Below, piece after piece: positions 8,440 through 46,162 of a stretch of 64,000 nucleotides of DNA. Both the position numbers and the translations under genes were made by a program. Location: positions 22,615 to 86,614 of the forward strand of contig JAUJNJ010000019.1 of the NCBI GenBank assembly GCA_030448225.1, read 5' to 3'. How positions within the stretch are numbered: the first letter of the stretch is position 1; each line of letters begins with the position of its first letter. This stretch comes from Phycisphaerae bacterium (GTDB lineage: Bacteria; Planctomycetota; Phycisphaerae; Tepidisphaerales; Tepidisphaeraceae). Under the pieces are notes generated by a model. It saw only the letters and a program-made list of their open reading frames with translations, was not told where the DNA came from and did not search any database.

Positions 8440-9532
8440 ATGAACGCGACGCTTCTTCGTGTGTTCGTCCTGATCGCCGCCTGCGCCACCTGCCGCGTCG
8501 CCGCCCGCGCCGCGGAACCAACGGCACCGCCGAAGAGGCGGCCTCCCGCCACCCGGCCCGGCCGCGACCGGGGCCATCGAGTTCCCGACGTTCGGGGTGG
8601 CGCTGGAGGCGCCGCGCGGGCTGCAACGCATCCCGGAAGGTTCCGCGGGGGACATCGCACGTTGGGCGGTGGTGGACGTCAGGAACGGCGGGTTCAACGC
8701 GATCGTGATGGCCGAGGTTCAGCCGGTGAAAGGGACGACGCGCGACGCGGTCGCGACGTTGGCGCGATCCATCGGCGGCACGGTCGAGGATCGCGGGACG
8801 ACGCTCGGCGGCGACGACGCGCTCCGCGTCCGCGGGCCCGCGGGCGCGGGCGCCGACCGCGGCGGGAACCTCCGCCCCGTCGAGGCCGTCGCCACAGTGC
8901 GTGGCGGATACCTCTACGTCGTCAGCGGGCTGGCCGAGCCGGGCGCGGACGTCGGCCCGGCGGTCGAGGCGCTGCGCAAGTCGTGGAAGTGGGTGCCGAT
9001 CGTCGCGCCGTCGGCGGACCTGTCGTTCCGCGGCGGCGCGGTCCCGCTCTGCGGCGGCCGGATCACGCTCGACGTGCCGGCCACGATGCGACCCTACCCG
9101 GTGAACGACGCGAAGACCGAGGTGCACCTCGGGGCCTACAACGACCTGCGCGGCAGCCAGGACTTCTTCCTGAACGTCTCGCTCCTCCCGGTGGACGCCG
9201 CGGTCGATCACGAGACGCTCGTCGGGCGTTTTCGGGACGCGCTGCGGCAGAAGACGGGCAGCGGCGAGATCGCGTTCCGCCGCGACCCGAAGGCGGTGCC
9301 GCCGCGCTCGACGAGCAACCTCGTGAAGATGCCTCGCCTCCAGCAACTCGCGCCCGGCGCGGTCGCCGGGAAGCAGGAGATCTGGACGCGGTGGGCGATC
9401 GTTGAGGTGTCGCCGACCGATTCGGTCCTGCTCACGATGACGGTCCACAACCAGCCGCCAAAGGAGCGTGACCTGTACGACCAGATGTTCGACAAGATTC
9501 TCGGAACGGTGAAGACGGCGCCGGCGAAGTGA
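8440..9532 (+). CDS. Secreted protein of unknown function (one frameshift)
   Basis: A protein of about 360 residues that I do not recognise. It starts with a signal peptide (MNATLLRVFVLIAACATCRV, then AARA) 31 bases after the cytochrome stop, with AAAGGGGA ahead of the ATG. One frame change near 8570 separates the leader from the body, which then runs unbroken (FPTFGVALEAPRGLQRIPEG to ILGTVKTAPAK). The body has two similar halves, each beginning with a GVALEAP- or RITLDVP-like strand and a stretch on amplitude and error terms, suggesting a duplicated alpha/beta fold. Tight spacing suggests co-transcription with the cytochrome. Confidence 0.7.
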
Positions 9533-9770: not shown

Positions 9771-10006
9771 ACTGGTGGGATCGACCGCGAAGCCCGGTAG
9801 CAGAATTAGCGTCGTGCCGCACGGGAGCTTACGGGCCTCTGACGAAACGTAGCGAACCTGAACCACGGGGCGACGGCGACGCGGAGCAGACGCGGTATTC
9901 TCCGTGATTTCTCTGTGGCTCCGTGGCTCCGTGGTTCAACTCGTCCTCATTCTGTCAGACGCCCTGAGCGCCCACCGCGGAGACCCCCGCCGGCGGCGAG
10001 CGCGGC

Positions 10007-10428: not shown

Positions 10429-11545
10429 ATGAACCGAGTTTTGCAACTCATCGGGAATGACATCGAGGACCGGCGTGCCGTCGCGACGCCGCCGGCGGTC
10501 GAGTCGGCGGGGGCGGCGGCGGCGGCGGACGACGCGGACCTGCTCGACGCCTACTCGCGGGCGGTCGTGGCGGCGGCGAAGCCGCGTGAGCCCGGCGGTG
10601 GTGAACATCGAGGTGCGGCACGCCGCCGGCCCGGGGCACCCCCAGCAGCCGCAGGGCCGCGGCGGCCGCGGGCCGGGCGGCGGCGGCGGCGGGGGCGGCG
10701 GGAGCGGGTCGGGGTTCGTCTTTACGCCCGACGGCTTCGTGCTGACCAACAGCCACGTCGTCCACGGCGTGCGCGCCATCGAGGTCACGCTCGCCGACGG
10801 CCGGCGGTTCCCGGCCAAGCTCGTCGGCGACGACCTGGAGACCGACTTGGCCGTGATCGACATCGCCGCGTCGAACCTGCCCCACTCGCAGTTCGGCGAC
10901 AGTTCGAAGATCCAGGTCGGCCAACTCGTGATCGCGATCGGGAGCCCGTACGGGTTCCAGTACACCGTGACGGCGGGCGTCGTCAGCAACCTCGCCCGCT
11001 CGTTCCGGTCGACGCCGGGGCGGCTGATCGAGAACATCATCCAGACCGACGCGCGCTCAACCCCGGCAACTCCGGCGGGCCGCTCGTCAACAGCCGGGGC
11101 GAGGTGATCGGCGTGAACACCGCGATCATCCCGATGGCGCAGGGCATCTGCTTCGCGATCCCCGCCGAGACGCGCAGTTCGTCGCGGCCCGGCTGATCCG
11201 CGACGGGCACATCAAGCGGGCATTCCTCGGCGTCGGCGGGCAGAACGTGCCGCTGCACCAGCGCGTCGTGCGGTTCTTCCGGCTCGACGTCGAGACCGGC
11301 GTGCTCGTGACGAACCTCGAGCCTCGACAGCCCCGCCGAGCGGGCCGGCGTGCGCGAGGGGGACGTGATCGTCGAGCTCGACGGCCGCCCGATCGCCAGC
11401 ATCGACGACCTGCTCCGCCTCATGACCGACGAGCCGCGTCGGCGTGACGATCCCGCTGACGCTCATCCGCCGCACCGAACGGCTGAAGCTCGACGTGACG
11501 CCGGGCGAGTCGCGGCGGCGGGACGGGCGGGGGAACGACAAATGA
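10429..11545 (+). CDS. HtrA/DegP-like trypsin-fold serine protease with PDZ domain (frameshifted)
   Basis: A protein of about 370 residues. A short Ala-rich N-terminus and a poly-Gly linker (near 10675-10710) lead into the protease: [20 protein letters not shown] (His), [10 protein letters not shown] (Asp), [20 protein letters not shown] (Ser). One PDZ domain follows ([26 protein letters not shown]). The catalytic triad is complete. Frame changes occur near 10585, 11055, 11170, 11325 and 11435, each restored within the conserved sequence. Unlike classic DegP there is no visible signal peptide; the start [17 protein letters not shown] is polar, so location is uncertain. Role: protein quality control. 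Confidence 0.85.
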
Positions 11546-11590
11546 CCAAGCCCCAATGACCAACAGATGACCAAGTCCAAATGACCAAGG
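11541..11590 (+). repeat. ATGACCAA direct repeats at the HtrA stop codon
   Basis: Four copies of the octamer ATGACCAA follow one another with spacers of 3-8 bases. The HtrA stop codon is the TGA of the first copy. Confidence 0.6.
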
Positions 11591-21453: not shown

Positions 21454-24400
21454 CTACGCCGCCTTCTTCTTCAGCATCTCCTGCTTCGGCTGTTTCGCGC
21501 CGGGGCGCTGGGCGGGCATCGGCACGACCTCGACCTCGCCGATCCGCTCGAGCTGCTTCTTCACCGCCTCGGCGGGCGCGACGACGACGATCGCCATCTC
21601 GCCGTCCTTCACGTACTCGTTCATCACCTCGCGCACCTGCGCCGTCGTCACCTGCGCGATGCGCCGGGGGTACTCGTCGTAGTAGTCGATCGGGTAGTCG
21701 TTCAGGATCGCGTCGACCCGGTAGCCGGCCTGCTGGCCGATCGTCTGCATGCCCATGACCATGCTGCCGGCGACGCGCATCTGCGCCTCGGACAACTCCT
21801 CGGGCGTGACGTCCTCGCGCCGCATGTCGCCGAACACCTTCCACATCGCCTCGACCGCGTCGGCGGTGCTCTCGACGGCGGTGTCGGTGGCGGCGACGAA
21901 CGCGCGGCCTGGCGGCCCGGCTGGAACACCCCCTGCACGCCGTAGGCGAGGCCCTTCTCCGCCCGCACGTACCGCCCGAGGCGCGAGTCGATGCCGCTCG
22001 TGAGGATCTGGCTGGCGACCGAGCCGGGGAACTTGTTCTCCGAGCGGATGTCGAACGCGCGGACGCCCATGCGCACCGTCGCCTGTTTCCCGCCCGGCCG
22101 GTCGACCACGAGGATCCGCCGCTTCGCCGGCGCCGGCGGCAAGCGCGTAGTCGGGCGGCGGGAGGAGCATCTTGTCGGTCTTCCACCCCTCCAGCAGCTT
22201 CGACGCCAATTCCTGCCCCCGTGCCTCGGTGACGTCGCCGCTGAGGATCAGGATCGCGTCCTCCGGGCGGAACGCCCCGCGGTAGAACGCCTTCACGTCG
22301 TCGAGCGTGATGGCCGACACGCTCTCCGGCGTCGGCGTGCGGCCGAGCGGCGAGTCGCCGTAGAGCCGCGGCGGACAACTCGTTGCCCGCCACCGTGCGC
22401 GGGTCCTCGCGGCTGAGCCGCGAGCTGGTTGATCGCCTGCTCCTTGAGCTGCTTGAACTGTTCCGGCGGGAAGTCGGGCTGCATCAGGATCTGCCGGCTC
22501 CGCTCGATCGCGTGGGGCAGCTGGTCGCTCGTCGTCGAACCGGACAAGCGGGTGTAATCGCCGCCGTCGCTCACCTCGATCGTGATGCCGCGCTTCGAGG
22601 TCGGCGTTGATCTGCTCGAACGTCATCCCTGCGGCCCCGCGGCGGACCATGTCGCCGGTGAGCGAGGCGAGCCCCTCCTTGCCGGCCGGGTCGCTGTGCG
22701 AGCCGCGCGCATCGTGAGGCTGAAGTTCACAAGCGGCAGCGCGGGTCGGGCATGACGATCACCTGCGCGCGCCGGCCTTGGACTCCGTGCCCTTCTCGAA
22801 CTCCGCGGCCCCCTTGGCCGTGCCCATCGACGGCGCCTTCGGCCAGTCGGCGGGGAACTTCACGTCGCGCGTCTCGACCGGGCGCGCCGCGACCGGCGCG
22901 TCGTTGGCGATCGCGGCAGCCGCGGCGCGCCGGCGGCGCGATCGGCGGCCGCGGCGCGCGGCGCGCCTTGGCTCCCGCGTCGGTCGCGGCGGCCGCGCCT
23001 TGGGGGGTTTCGGCGCCGGTTGGGTCGGGCATGACGTGGAGCGTCGGCGCCCGGGCCGGCTGGAGGTACTTCTTCGCCACCGCCTGCACGTCGGCCGCCG
23101 TGACGGCGTCGAACTTCGCCGCCATCTCGTTGACGCGCTTGGCGTCGTGGCCGAACAGCGCCTCCTCGCCAAGCTGCCCGGCGAGGTCTTCGGCGGTCTT
23201 GCGGCCGTTGATCAGCGTGACGCGGGCCTGCGTCTTGGCCATCGCCAGCTCGTCGTCGCTCACGCCGGATTCGGCCACCTTCGCGATCGCGTCGACGAGG
23301 AACTGCTCGATCGCCTTGGGGTCGCGCCCCTGCATCGCGGTCGCGCTGGCGGTGAAGACGCCGGCGTCCTCGAGCTGCATCGGTCCGGCGCTGACCTGAA
23401 CGGCGAGCGGGCTGGGGCCGTAGACTAGCTCGCGGTCCCGCCGGGCCGATCGCCCGCCGCTGAGGATCGTGCCGAGCAGCGTGAGCGCGTAGTGATCGTC
23501 ACTGCGATAATCGGGCAGCTTGTAGCCGATCATCACGGCCGGCAGTGGCACGCGGTCGGGCGTCTCCACCCGCCGGGGCTCGGCCTGCTCGGGCTCCTTG
23601 GGGATGTCGCGCTGCACCTTCGGGCCCGGCGGGATCCAGCCGAAGTAGCGCCGGACCATTTCCTTGGTCTTGGCGACGTCGATGTCGCCGGCGATGACGA
23701 GGATCGCGTTGTTCGGCAGGTAGTACGTGTTGAAGAAGTCCTGGAGTTCGGCGACCTCGGCGGCCTGGAGGTGCTCCATGACGCCGATCGGGGTCCAGCG
23801 GTAGCTGTGGGCGGTGAACGCGCTTTTCAGGAAGTTCTCGTAGAGCGTGCCGTACGGGCGGTTCTGGCGGATGCGCCACTCCTCGGCGACGACCTTGCGC
23901 TCGGTCTTGTAGATGTTCTCGTCGACCTTGAAGCTCGCCATGCGGTCGGCCTCGAGGTACAGGACCATGTCGAGGTGCTCCTTGGGGACCGTGTTGACGT
24001 AGACGGTCTGGTCGAAGCTCGTGAACGCGTTGGAGTTCCCGCCGACCGTGCCGACGAGGCGCATGTGCTGCTCGGGCTTCACGTGGGCCGAGCCGCGGAA
24101 CATCATGTGCTCGAACAGGTGGGCGAACCCCTGGCGGTCGGGGCGCTCGTCCTTGGAGCCGACGTGATAAATGACCCGCGCGTGCACGACCGGCGCCTGC
24201 CGCAGCGGCGCGTAGATCACGCGCAGCCCATTGTCCAGCGTCTCCTCCTCGAACTCGATCGGCTGCGGCGCGGGGGGCGTGGCGGTCGCGGCGGGTGCGG
24301 CGCCACCGGCGGGGGCGGCGGGTGCGGCCGGGGCGGCGGGCGAGGCCGGGGCGGCGGGTTGGGCTGCGTCGGCGACGTGGGCGGCCGGGGCGAGCAGCGC

Positions 24401-24457
24401 CAGCGCGATCAAGACGAGCAGCGCCGGGCGGGCGGGGCGAACGAGCGTGGGCTTCAT
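21454..24457 (-). CDS. Two-domain M16 zinc metallopeptidase, secreted (frameshifted in C half)
   Basis: A periplasmic insulinase-family peptidase of about 1000 residues. Signal peptide (PALLVLIALALLAPAAHV) and an Ala/Pro linker, then an active M16 half: inverted zinc motif HLFEH at residues 113-117, and YKTERKVVAEEWRIR carrying the distal glutamate. The second M16 half (GDMVRRGAAGMTFEQINADL, YGDSPLGRTPTPESVSAITL, AIVVVAPAEAVKKQLERI) lacks HxxEH and is the structural partner. The first 490 codons are clean; the linker and second half change frame at about 22960, 22775, 22720, 22595, 22430, 22370, 22140 and 21915. Fusion of both halves in one chain matches large bacterial M16 enzymes. Substrate unknown. 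Confidence 0.85.
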
Positions 24458-25215
24458 CCATGACTCCGGTTACAAGAATCGCCGCAGCGGGCGGCGTTGG
24501 GTTCGTTTTGCAAAAAGGCGCGGCGAACGGCGGACGGCTACAACCCGCCGGCGACCTCGCCACTCCAGATTAGACGACCGCCGACTCGGCATCCAACCCC
24601 GCCGGCGTTGGGTTCGTTTTGCACCCGGCGCGGTTGGCTTCGTTCTGCATCATCGCGACTTGGGTTCGTTTCACGCCGACGATGGCTCCGGTCGATTCCG
24701 GCCCGGTGGCTTCGTTTTGCATCCGACGACGATTGGCTTCATTCGCCACCGCCGTGTCGGGTTCGTTCTGCACCGGCGCCATTGGCTTCGTTTTGCACTG
24801 GCGGCGGCGGTGGCTTCCTTTCGTCGGGACGAATGTCGTTTCGTTTCACGACGGCCGCGGCCGTTACTGTCGATCCGGCGCACTGCCGTTGGGTTCGTTC
24901 TGCACCGGCGGCGCGCTGATGGTGCTGCGCTGGACGTGCTCACCGTGCATCCCCGCCTCCTCCGGTGACGGCTGCCGGCGCAGACCGACGCCGCGGAGAA
25001 TGGTATCCGGGCGGCTCGCGAATGTCGGCGGTTTAGTTCCGGGGCCGCGTAGATTTCGCCGCCGTCGATGAAACGCGTTCCGCCGTGCGGCCACTTCGTT
25101 CGGCGTACCGCGTCAGCCGGACGCGGGCTTGACGCCATCGGACGGGGCCAGCCCTTGCTGCCAACGGCCGGGACCGGTTCAATGCTTCGTCGGGGGGACT
25201 TCATCGGGAGGACTC
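24458..25215. other. Intergenic region with the 16-bp repeat array
   Basis: A 758-bp gap between the divergent M16 and cupin genes. More than half is the repeat array at 24497-24904. The rest (24905-25215) has no gene; the cupin ribosome-binding site is at its right end. Confidence 0.5.
24497..24904. repeat. Array of eleven 16-bp degenerate direct repeats
   Basis: The unit is TTGGSTTCGTTYTGCA. Copies begin at 24497, 24608, 24634, 24660, 24706, 24733, 24757, 24782, 24810, 24835 and 24889. Two are exact TTGGGTTCGTTTTGCA (24497, 24608); 24660, 24733, 24810 and 24835 are decayed at the 3' half. Steps are about 24-28 bases or roughly multiples (46, 54, 111), so the true period is near 26 with about 10 variable GC-rich bases between units. 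Read on the minus strand the units encode QNEPN, QNEAN, KTNPT or KRTQ depending on frame, but no consistent protein results. I recall short planctomycete hypothetical proteins with such peptides, which suggests a widespread DNA repeat. Confidence 0.8.
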
Positions 25216-25704
25216 ATGGATCACGAGAATCTCGAACCGCTTGCCCGGGCGCCGGGCGAGGGGCTGTCGATCAACTGCATCGGCGACAACCAGACGGTCA
25301 AGCTCACCGGCGAGCAGACCGGCGGGCGGTTCACGCTCGTCGAGGACGAGAACCCGCCGGGCACGGCCATCCCGCTCCACTACCACACGCGCGAGGACGA
25401 GAGCTTCTACGTCCTGGACGGCACGGTCGACTTCACGATCGGCGGCCGGCGCCTCCTCGCCCTGCCCGGCACCACGCTCTTCGCGCCGCGCGACGTGCCG
25501 CACGCGTGGACGGTGATCGGCGACCGCTCGGCGCGGATGCTCATCATGCTCACGCCCGGCGGCGCCGACCGCATGTTCGCCGAACTCGCCTCCCACTGCG
25601 GCGACCGCTGCGCCGGCGGCCCGATGCCGCCGCCCGAGGTGATCGCCGAAATCTGCGGCCGCTACGGGGTGTTCTTCGGTGCGCCGGCGGAGGCAGAGGG
25701 ATGA
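25216..25704 (+). CDS. Cupin-domain protein
   Basis: Intact 162-residue single-domain cupin. ATG at 25216 follows GGGAGGA, better than an in-frame start 87 bases earlier. Motif 1 is IPLHYHTREDESFYVLDG, with both histidines and the glutamate of the metal site; motif 2 is FAPRDVPHAWTVIGD with its histidine. The C-terminal 40 residues (GPMPPPEVIAEICGRYGVFF) match quercetin-2,3-dioxygenase-like or unknown-function cupins of similar size. Enzymatic role is unproven. Confidence 0.85.
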   Translation: MDHENLEPLARAPGEGLSINCIGDNQTVKLTGEQTGGRFTLVEDENPPGTAIPLHYHTREDESFYVLDGTVDFTIGGRRLLALPGTTLFAPRDVPHAWTVIGDRSARMLIMLTPGGADRMFAELASHCGDRCAGGPMPPPEVIAEICGRYGVFFGAPAEAEG

Positions 25705-25823
25705 ACGCCAAGACTCCAAGGTAAGAGGGAGGAGAATAGAATTGATTGATCGTTCGTTTATTTGTCGCCTCTATCCCAACTCTTCTCTTCCTACCTTGGC
25801 GTCTTGGCGTCTTGGCGTTCATC
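25704..25823. repeat. Inverted repeat of CCAAGACGCCAAGG type
   Basis: The left arm GAACGCCAAGACTCCAAGGT overlaps the cupin stop codon; the right arm CTACCTTGGCGTCTTGGCGT, CTTGGCGTTC ends near 25820. The right arm has one extra CTTGGCGT unit. The enclosed stretch is AT-rich for this genome. It may act as the cupin terminator. Confidence 0.6.
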
Positions 25824-27425: not shown

Positions 27426-30826
<3,401 letters not shown>

Positions 30827-45960: not shown

Positions 45961-46004
45961 CGGTCAACGTTGACCGGTCATCTTATGTTGACCGGTCATC
46001 TTAT
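45961..46004. repeat. 16-bp palindrome joined to an 18-bp tandem duplication
   Basis: CGGTCAACGTTGACCG (45961-45976) is a perfect palindrome. GTTGACCGGTCATCTTAT occurs twice, back to back (45969-45986, 45987-46004). Half-sites GTTGACC recur, as in an operator with repeated half-sites. Confidence 0.7.
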
Positions 46005-46162
46005 ATGGCCCGGCCCCTCTCCCGCGTCCGGACATACAGCACGGAATCCCACGTCCCATGCTGATGCGTCCATCGCCAGCCCAGTACATAACCATGACCC
46101 CCGGTGGGTTCGATCGGCTCGGCATTTTCGTCCGCCGCACGGACGCTTGGCATCTTCGATGC

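Follow-up and report, generated by a model that had tools for sequence, protein, structure and literature searches.

In the window, as the whole 64 kb stretch of analysed DNA is called here, an array of short direct repeats occupies the intergenic region between an M16 peptidase gene and a divergent cupin gene (Table 1). Eleven copies had been noted there in a preliminary description, and they were recovered as nine copies of the 16-mer TTGGSTTCGTTYTGCA with at most three mismatches and two decayed ones, all on one strand. The 16-mer had been written as it reads on the plus strand; on the strand that is sense for the M16 gene it reads TGCAAAACGAASCCAA. At up to three mismatches, TTGGSTTCGTTYTGCA has 11 matches in the 64 kb, nine of which fall, all on the plus strand, inside 24497-24904, while the remaining two lie outside the array with three mismatches each; shuffled versions of the window had 0.74 matches on average, and none of 100 reached 11. 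The steps between copies, 111, 26, 26, 46, 27, 24, 25, 28, 25 and 54 bases, were recomputed as originally given (24-111), and parts of the array were called by TRF as period 26 and period 24. The setting is divergent, and the array is closer to the M16 gene, at which it points, than to the cupin gene about 311 bp away.

Table 1. Coordinates of the repeat copies and adjoining features in the window, and of the head element in other loci
Feature	Locus	Position	Strand	Basis or remark
Whole array	window	24497..24904	-	pattern matches; strand reading TGCAAAACGAASCCAA, gene-sense for the M16 gene
Core copy, 0 mismatches	window	24497..24512	-	pattern match; ~40 bp upstream of the M16 start codon
Core copy, 0 mismatches	window	24608..24623	-	pattern match
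Core copy, 0 mismatches	window	24634..24649	-	pattern match
Core copy, 3 mismatches	window	24660..24675	-	pattern match
Core copy, 1 mismatch	window	24706..24721	-	pattern match
Core copy, 3 mismatches	window	24733..24748	-	pattern match
Core copy, 1 mismatch	window	24757..24772	-	pattern match
Core copy, 0 mismatches	window	24782..24797	-	pattern match
Decayed core copy, 5 mismatches	window	24810..24825	-	pattern match
Decayed core copy, 6 mismatches	window	24835..24850	-	mismatches counted by hand
Core copy, 0 mismatches; array end farthest from the M16 gene	window	24889..24904	-	pattern match
M16 (insulinase-type) peptidase gene, target of the array direction	window	22727..24457	-	Pfam PF00675, PF05193 (Peptidase_M16, M16_C)
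Cupin gene (Cupin_2), divergent, beyond the far side of the array	window	25216..25704	+	Pfam PF07883; ATG at 25216
Weak, speculative promoter candidate TTGGAT-16-TCTAAT	window	24569..24596	-	by eye; 8/12 consensus bases
Head element, TTCGTGCAACA pair	L306	9123-9239
Head element, TTCGTGCAACA pair	L308	9290-9405
Head element, TTCGTGCAACA pair	L303	8573-8688
Head element, TTCGTGCAACA pair	L302	9368-9483
Head element, TTCGTGCAACA pair	L304	2721-2836
Head element, one motif	L309	9741

A promoter scan at the window array returned no consensus promoter or site above the thresholds, and the candidate listed in Table 1 sits in the 111-bp gap between core copies 1 and 2. Rfam 15 gave no match in 24300-25300 at E up to 1, no inverted repeats of at least 12 bases were found in 24300-25100, a tRNA search over the whole window found none, and no head like those described below for genomes G003 and G354 was seen by eye at the array. 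Terminator-like sites around the array numbered 4 versus 1.3 in shuffles and were not used as support.

Two neighbouring minus-strand M16 peptidase ORFs occupy 21454-22650 and 22727-24457; the reading frame of the upstream ORF is apparently broken near 22900, and several more genes in the window have a fragmented look that would fit frame errors in the assembly. Other repeats are also present in the window. Short tandem repeats at 25795-25818, 9911-9934 and 11538-11588 consist of CTTGGCGT three times, CTCCGTGG three times and the 25-mer ACAAATGACCAAGCCCAAATGACCA twice, and resemble in kind the 7-8 bp repeats of relatives (CCGCAATC, CTTCTGT and ATACG types), which occur upstream of genes as well as within spacers. 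Long GC-rich hexamer-type and 12-54 bp tandem repeats, partly open for proline-valine repeats, extend over 27551-30229, and about two copies of an 18-bp direct repeat, GTTGACCGGTCATCTTAT, are found at 45969-46013.

Distribution and orientation of the arrays

The reverse complement of the 16-mer contains a 12-bp core, AAACRAASCCAA, which forms same-strand arrays in some planctomycete genomes and is absent from most sampled relatives. A first scan of genome contigs with a loose two-site pattern gave 82 stretches (80 of them listed), 12 of which held at least two matches when recounted with the 16-mer at up to two mismatches; the remaining stretches were taken as chance. Six loci were read in all, and five of them (L002, L005, L075, L011 and L014) are similar to the window array, with L007, L008, L041, L051, L062, L069 and L077 left unread. 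The sixth, L036 from a planctomycete bin, had 0 matches in the recount and was rejected as an array; the tandem repeat that it carries at 790-980 is a different one, with a 39-bp unit and an inverted repeat of 7 bp (TTAGTGG TTCGTTCTGCA CCACTAA). The loci leading to genomes G001, G002 and G003 bear the titles of planctomycete metagenome bins.

Copies of the exact 15-mer TTGGSTTCGTTTTGC were counted per genome, with its reversed string as the control. Among the 12 genomes reached from the first scan, six contain it (G001 17, G002 36, G003 94, G004 5, G005 12 and G012 2), and the control was found in none of the 12. The element is also present in other planctomycetes, as had been anticipated. In the phylum of G003 (294 genomes), five genomes have the 15-mer, namely G003 and four with a single copy, and such single copies are at chance level because five genomes have one control match each. 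In the family of G003 it is present in 21 of 60 genomes, with at least two copies in 12 and one control match, the highest counts being 94 (G003), 75 (G354), 28 (G355) and 17 (G319). In the order of G002 it is present in 9 of 45 genomes, again with one control match (G002 36, G406 18, G001 17, G402 4, G378 3, G366 2, G374 2 and two genomes with 1). The malate dehydrogenase of the window matched 197 of 392 sampled genomes of G003's phylum at E<=1e-60, with best matches 66-68% identical, and the order holding these best matches, that of G450, has one copy of the 16-mer TTGGSTTCGTTYTGCA in 251 genomes. The idea that many Acidobacteria carry the array was dropped, since in the phylum of G005, Acidobacteria by record title, the array pattern was found in 1 of 297 genomes, the query genome itself. 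Viral contigs gave 0 matches for two array patterns. The element is abundant in some lineages and absent from most, a patchy distribution.

Multi-copy arrays and, in G354, exact-core sites were shown to lie upstream of genes and in gene sense in three genomes. For this comparison, 20 regions each from G003, G002 and G354 were picked from 94, 36 and 75 exact places, with long contigs preferred, and clusters were scored with a purpose-made simple gene finder, random intergenic points serving as the null. The 17 G003 clusters of at least three copies were divergent in 10 cases, tandem sense in six, tandem antisense in none, convergent in none and at an edge in one, compared with 43% divergent, 22% sense, 22% antisense and 12% convergent for the null. 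Eight G002 clusters of at least two copies were divergent (5), sense (2), antisense (0) or inside a called gene (1), and 25 single exact cores of G354 were divergent (6), sense (10), antisense (2), convergent (2), inside a gene (1) or at an edge (4). Pooled over the three genomes, tandem cases were 18 sense versus 2 antisense (two-sided binomial by hand, about 4e-4), and in divergent regions the array was closer to the sense gene in 20 of 21 (9/10 in G003, 5/5 in G002 and 6/6 in G354; about 2e-5). Lone G002 copies are without a tandem signal, because all 20 G002 clusters, single copies included, comprised three sense and three antisense cases, besides 10 divergent, one convergent, one inside a called gene and two at an edge. 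One eight-copy G002 array (L236) lies within a called ORF of the opposite strand, four G406 clusters were mixed with no polarity, and 12 of 16 acidobacterial clusters were inside called genes. The target genes in G003, named by eye, include those for thioredoxin, ClpX, GAPDH, glutamate kinase and a trypsin-like protease, and look unrelated in function.

Core, steps and modules

Retrieved DNA from six sets was used to score each position of AAACRAASCCAAT with all others matching. G003 has 139 matching copies; single-base departures number 11 over the ten non-degenerate positions among the first twelve, and another 13 affect the final T. In G002, 36 copies match, 19 have G for A at position 1 and 2 depart otherwise, while in G354, 66 match and departures number 14 at position 2, 18 at position 3, 36 at the final T and 5 elsewhere in the core; the rplM relatives, the Acidobacteria and the window have 27, 17 and 1 matching copies, respectively. 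At S, every one of the 286 copies from the six sets has C or G. The core is therefore near-invariant in G003 and less fixed in G002 and G354, and in G003 this contrasts with copies of the conserved head beside the arrays, which are only 78-91% identical to the query copy, and with modules, 49 of 133 of which have no similar partner. In 127 of 146 G003 cores (19 with C before AAAC being excluded), the base before AAAC (A or G) is linked with R (odds ratio 5.2, p 1.6e-5), and two core subtypes are therefore indicated.

A 26-bp rhythm equal to 2.5 helical turns had been proposed, and it proved to be limited to the window array, as other genomes prefer other steps. Among steps of up to 120 bases, those of G003 range from 27 to 118 (commonest 52-53) and those of G002 from 33 to 87 (commonest 84-85), and in G354 the commonest are 90 and 10-11; the full range in G003 is 27-254. 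Helical phasing at 10.5 bp was R=0.77 in G002 (n=35; a hand calculation with each length used once gave about 0.5), 0.52 in the window (n=7), 0.21 in G354, 0.18 at rplM loci and 0.10 in G003, and a general helical-phase rule was rejected.

Modules, defined as core-to-core stretches, were compared at a similarity threshold of 0.30 (99.9% of shuffled pairs are below 0.21), using 133 modules from 17 arrays of one genome, G003. A similar partner was found for 84 of the 133, and 110 of 116 similar pairs are in different arrays. Neighbours of similar modules were themselves similar in 2 of 187 comparisons, with very different lengths counted as not similar; under whole-array copying or tandem duplication, neighbours would be expected to stay together. 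The base states of the flanking cores (132 modules, 107 pairs) were concordant with the module up to R at the 3' core (z=2.9), and this concordance was gone at S (z=0.5); the 5' core was less clear, with z=2.0 at R, z=2.6 at the base preceding the core and z=1.0 at S. This pattern suggests an exchange point inside the core. In addition, 70 of 131 G003 spacers match another spacer (176 same-strand and 23 opposite-strand matches), and 23 spacer matches in unmasked DNA of the same loci are partly two-copy arrays missed by the mask and partly short repeats. With one 741-bp array as the query, G003 gave 173 matches (40 regions scored out of 150 candidates), and many of these matches are short pieces on core-carrying contigs.

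Promoter-like sites and conserved heads

At clpX and rplM, a promoter-like site conserved among relatives was shown to separate the array from the gene. In five genus loci with the full clpX upstream region, a promoter-like TTGC..-TACAAT is present at -75/-76 in 5/5. With up to two mismatches allowed, G003 has 11 cores there (-1004 to -206), G730 has a single one at -166 and the other three have 0, and the upstream regions of the relatives are not collinear. For rplM, among the 30 best loci of 56 matching genomes (G354 included), cores within one mismatch occur in 12, all 12 upstream and in gene sense. A TTGACA-16-TAAAAT-like promoter was seen by eye just 5' of the gene in 19 loci viewed, and where an array is present, this promoter separates it from the gene; in core-free loci, the array position is taken up by different sequence or by different short tandem repeats (e.g. 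L203 and L208). A location of all arrays in the 5' UTR of the gene was dropped in view of these conserved promoters. Consensus promoters were also seen by eye above two rplM arrays (L205 and L207) and above the lone core that G730 has at clpX.

In 15 of 20 G003 loci, the array has a conserved head at its far side, and at least 40 copies of this head were found in the genome (40 of 76 candidates scored). About 143 bases of this head match in relatives; it is present in 6 of 8 genus relatives in one to five copies, with full-length matches 69-72% and partial ones 80-91% identical. In 11 of 12 head loci read in relatives there are no cores, and L273 has three matches at two mismatches. The same element of about 145 bp occurs in many copies beside G003 arrays and, in relatives, directly upstream, in sense, of prophage portal operons (portal gene by Pfam in L306 and L308 and by eye in L309, followed in L306 by an SU10-type capsid gene by Pfam), of a primase-helicase gene (L279/L303) and of two HNH endonuclease genes (L273/L302 and L283/L304). 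At L307 the next gene is not phage-like and more than 500 bases off, and L305 ends with the contig. The non-coding element has two TTCGTGCAACA motifs 115-116 bases apart, with only one in L309 (Table 1). Two patterns of the G003 head gave 0 matches in viral contigs, its consensus structure as RNA was weak (-2.8 kcal/mol), and a sigma-54 or sigma-70 reading made by eye only was set aside.

In G354, the roughly 313 kb of DNA retrieved around cores contain 16 copies of a different head, most commonly AGCGGAGAACCGCA..GTATCAGCAGATACACGC. All 16 are followed by a same-sense core, at distances of up to 500 bases in 14 copies and of 556 and 736 bases in the other two, and 11/16 are preceded by a sigma-70-like TTGAAC-N16-18-TATAAT. 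From the side of the cores, 11 of 25 lack a head within 500 bases, and 16 of 25 lack such a promoter within 600. This head looks like a conserved stretch of two hairpins (L155-L174, e.g. L157 7968-8027, minus strand). Rfam 15 at the gathering threshold found nothing over the arrays of six G003 and eight G354 loci, and nothing over the G354 head in its eight loci. The arrays themselves may be transcribed. A fluoride riboswitch (Rfam RF01734) adjoins the L150 array locus at 8721-8783.

Possible nature of the arrays

The reading tentatively preferred, with somewhat less than even confidence, is that of a dispersed, lineage-restricted repeat whose core is read by a putative factor, whose modules are moved singly and which is kept upstream of promoters, pointing at the gene. 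It is ranked ahead of the others on the grounds that relatives differ in carrying the element and that the genes appear to share nothing. The unit would be the 12-bp core AAACRAASCCAA, usually TGCAAAACGAASCCAAT, recognised by a sequence-specific factor; arrays would be built and rearranged by the transfer of single core-to-core modules between loci, with an exchange point in or near the core, and would be retained where they lie upstream of the promoter of a gene and point in its direction. Such a factor is proposed because the core is nearly fixed while spacers vary, modules appear to be exchanged at the core and orientation is directed at genes; it might be a recombinase, an insertion machinery or a DNA-binding regulator. 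The polarity might be due to targeting or to selection against other positions, and transcription of the downstream gene may be affected. Against this reading, no recombinase or transposase was tied to the element; terminal inverted repeats, target duplications or an empty site at single-base resolution were not shown, and the ends of the G003 element are not defined to the base. The module evidence comes from one genome, the 5'-core breakpoint is ambiguous and the core is less fixed in G002 and G354, while polarity is absent in G406 clusters and G002 singles, and acidobacterial clusters are mostly inside called genes. A RAYT transposase (PF01797) gained no support as the driver, being as common without the element in the genomes compared (10 of 12 carriers versus 13 of 14 genomes lacking the exact 15-mer, three of which, G311, G317 and G348, have near cores at rplM).

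It is possible, if rather doubtful, that the arrays are cis-regulatory, consisting of direct-repeat regulator sites or phased A-rich curved DNA upstream of a promoter, with copy number tuning expression and spread representing the growth of a regulon. The protein-binding array first suggested still stands as a candidate here, and the position of arrays upstream of promoter-like sites (sites seen at clpX in 5/5 genus loci and at rplM, by eye, in the 19/30 loci viewed), the near-invariant G003 core, the phasing in G002 (R=0.77, n=35) and the 10-11 bp units in the G354 family are all consistent with it. However, the target genes, judged by eye, have no common function, presence at the same gene differs among relatives (12/30 rplM loci; 11, 1, 0, 0 and 0 copies at clpX), and steps are unphased in G003 (R=0.10) and over all steps in G354 (0.21), with the 26-bp steps of the window alternating faces. 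Judged unlikely is an element acting as RNA, in which a distal promoter would drive transcription through the array and a protein would bind the UGCAAAACGAASCCAAU repeats of the resulting leader or ncRNA (a post-transcriptional regulator, Rho or a sponge), as proposed for the TAACTGA repeats considered below. The strand polarity, the G354 heads (16/16 with a same-sense core, 11/16 with the TTGAAC-N16-18-TATAAT site), the consensus promoters seen by eye above the L205 and L207 rplM arrays and the G730 clpX core, and the G003-type head upstream, in sense, of prophage and other genes in genus relatives would agree with transcription, and promoter-like heads indirectly suggest the small-RNA source also mentioned earlier. 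Yet 11/25 G354 cores are headless within 500 bases and 16/25 lack such a promoter within 600, the head is absent at 5/20 G003 loci, scanned loci have no Rfam match over arrays, the G003 head structure is weak (-2.8 kcal/mol), and the window array has no consensus promoter around it.

A neutral satellite, in which short repeats expand by slippage in long promoter-upstream intergenic DNA like other 7-8 bp tandem families, appears improbable. Other short tandem repeats do occur in the same position in relatives (L203, L208) and also in the window, whose array units are partly tandem, and 10-11 bp tandem units are found in relatives; but the G003 core hardly departs while spacers differ, single modules are alike between arrays without their neighbours, which is not slippage, and gene-sense polarity is also unexplained. 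The expanding satellite of the preliminary description thus does not account for the near-invariant core and shuffled modules. A CRISPR array or a protein-coding repeat is highly improbable: near-fixed repeats with differing spacers and open frames across arrays recall them, whereas the repeat has 12-18 bp with spacers of about 10 to more than 200 bp, and a coding repeat is opposed by spacing that changes the reading frame between copies. CRISPR had also been set aside at the outset; the core is short and the steps are uneven, and among the families listed for ten of the 60 window ORFs compared with PADLOC there was no Cas family (for one ABC-type ATPase, 25 of 35 families were shown).

Several known systems share features with the arrays. 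In integron attC cassette arrays, modules are joined at a conserved site and exchanged one at a time, as G003 modules appear to be (2/187 neighbour pairs similar, 110/116 between arrays); unlike attC arrays, the window array has no inverted repeat, modules are tens of bases long and dozens of loci are involved. REP/BIME and RAYT elements are likewise dispersed short intergenic repeats in clusters, but their unit is palindromic, whereas no inverted repeats of at least 12 bases exist in 24300-25100, and RAYT genes did not appear carrier-specific in the genomes compared. Mobile promoters and MITEs are dispersed non-coding elements, like the present one with its promoter-like head upstream of genes; MITEs have terminal inverted repeats and target duplication, while here no terminal inverted repeats were shown and the array body varies in length around a near-invariant core. 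CRISPR arrays have near-identical repeats of about 23-50 bp and differing spacers of near-uniform length, in contrast to a core of 12-18 bp, very uneven steps (24-111 in the window, 27-254 in G003) and spacers common to different arrays. The closest described system is that of the TAACTGA heptamers (MacGregor 2015, PMC4679880), which are short intergenic direct repeats, mostly forward, upstream of functionally unrelated genes, patchy in distant lineages (Beggiatoaceae, Cyanobacteria and Bacteroidetes) and without a known factor. The arrays share with them forward direct repeats upstream of genes (in three genomes, and in the window at M16), but those repeats are tandem 7-mers, in the main genome mostly a few bases from the start codon (PMC4679880), whereas the planctomycete arrays have a core of 12-18 bp, spacers that are longer and shuffled, and a position upstream of the promoter at clpX and rplM.

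A bolder and quite unlikely version of the module reading is a non-coding cassette system, in which an enzyme would recognise the 12-bp core and move single spacer modules, oriented with transcription, among dozens of arrays upstream of promoters; cells could then assemble and reassort the upstream regions of genes from a shared module pool. If the module reading is right, some planctomycetes would build promoter-upstream DNA from interchangeable pieces via an almost invariant site, so far unrecognised. The core AAACRAASCCAA gives a concrete target, namely a protein that reads it and might move modules, control promoters or do both. Literature searches on the translated peptides and on planctomycete or intergenic repeats, with most subscription papers outside their scope, found no description, and of the core DNA strings only the 11-mer AACGAACCCAA occurs, in papers unrelated by title.

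Conservation had been placed at the DNA or RNA level, not the protein level, in the preliminary description, and conservation at the DNA level was supported. A search with one translated array ORF of a relative matched 65 of 69 candidate proteins at E<=1, the query being one of the 65; none has a precomputed Pfam domain, and every name shown is 'hypothetical protein', which agrees with the earlier idea of mistranslated copies. The window's own 70-aa minus-strand ORF finds itself only (1 of 3 candidates). A real protein family across the array was rejected, the 65 hypothetical-only matches being read as mistranslated arrays, and if this reading is right, a set of 'hypothetical proteins' in databases would be misread array copies.
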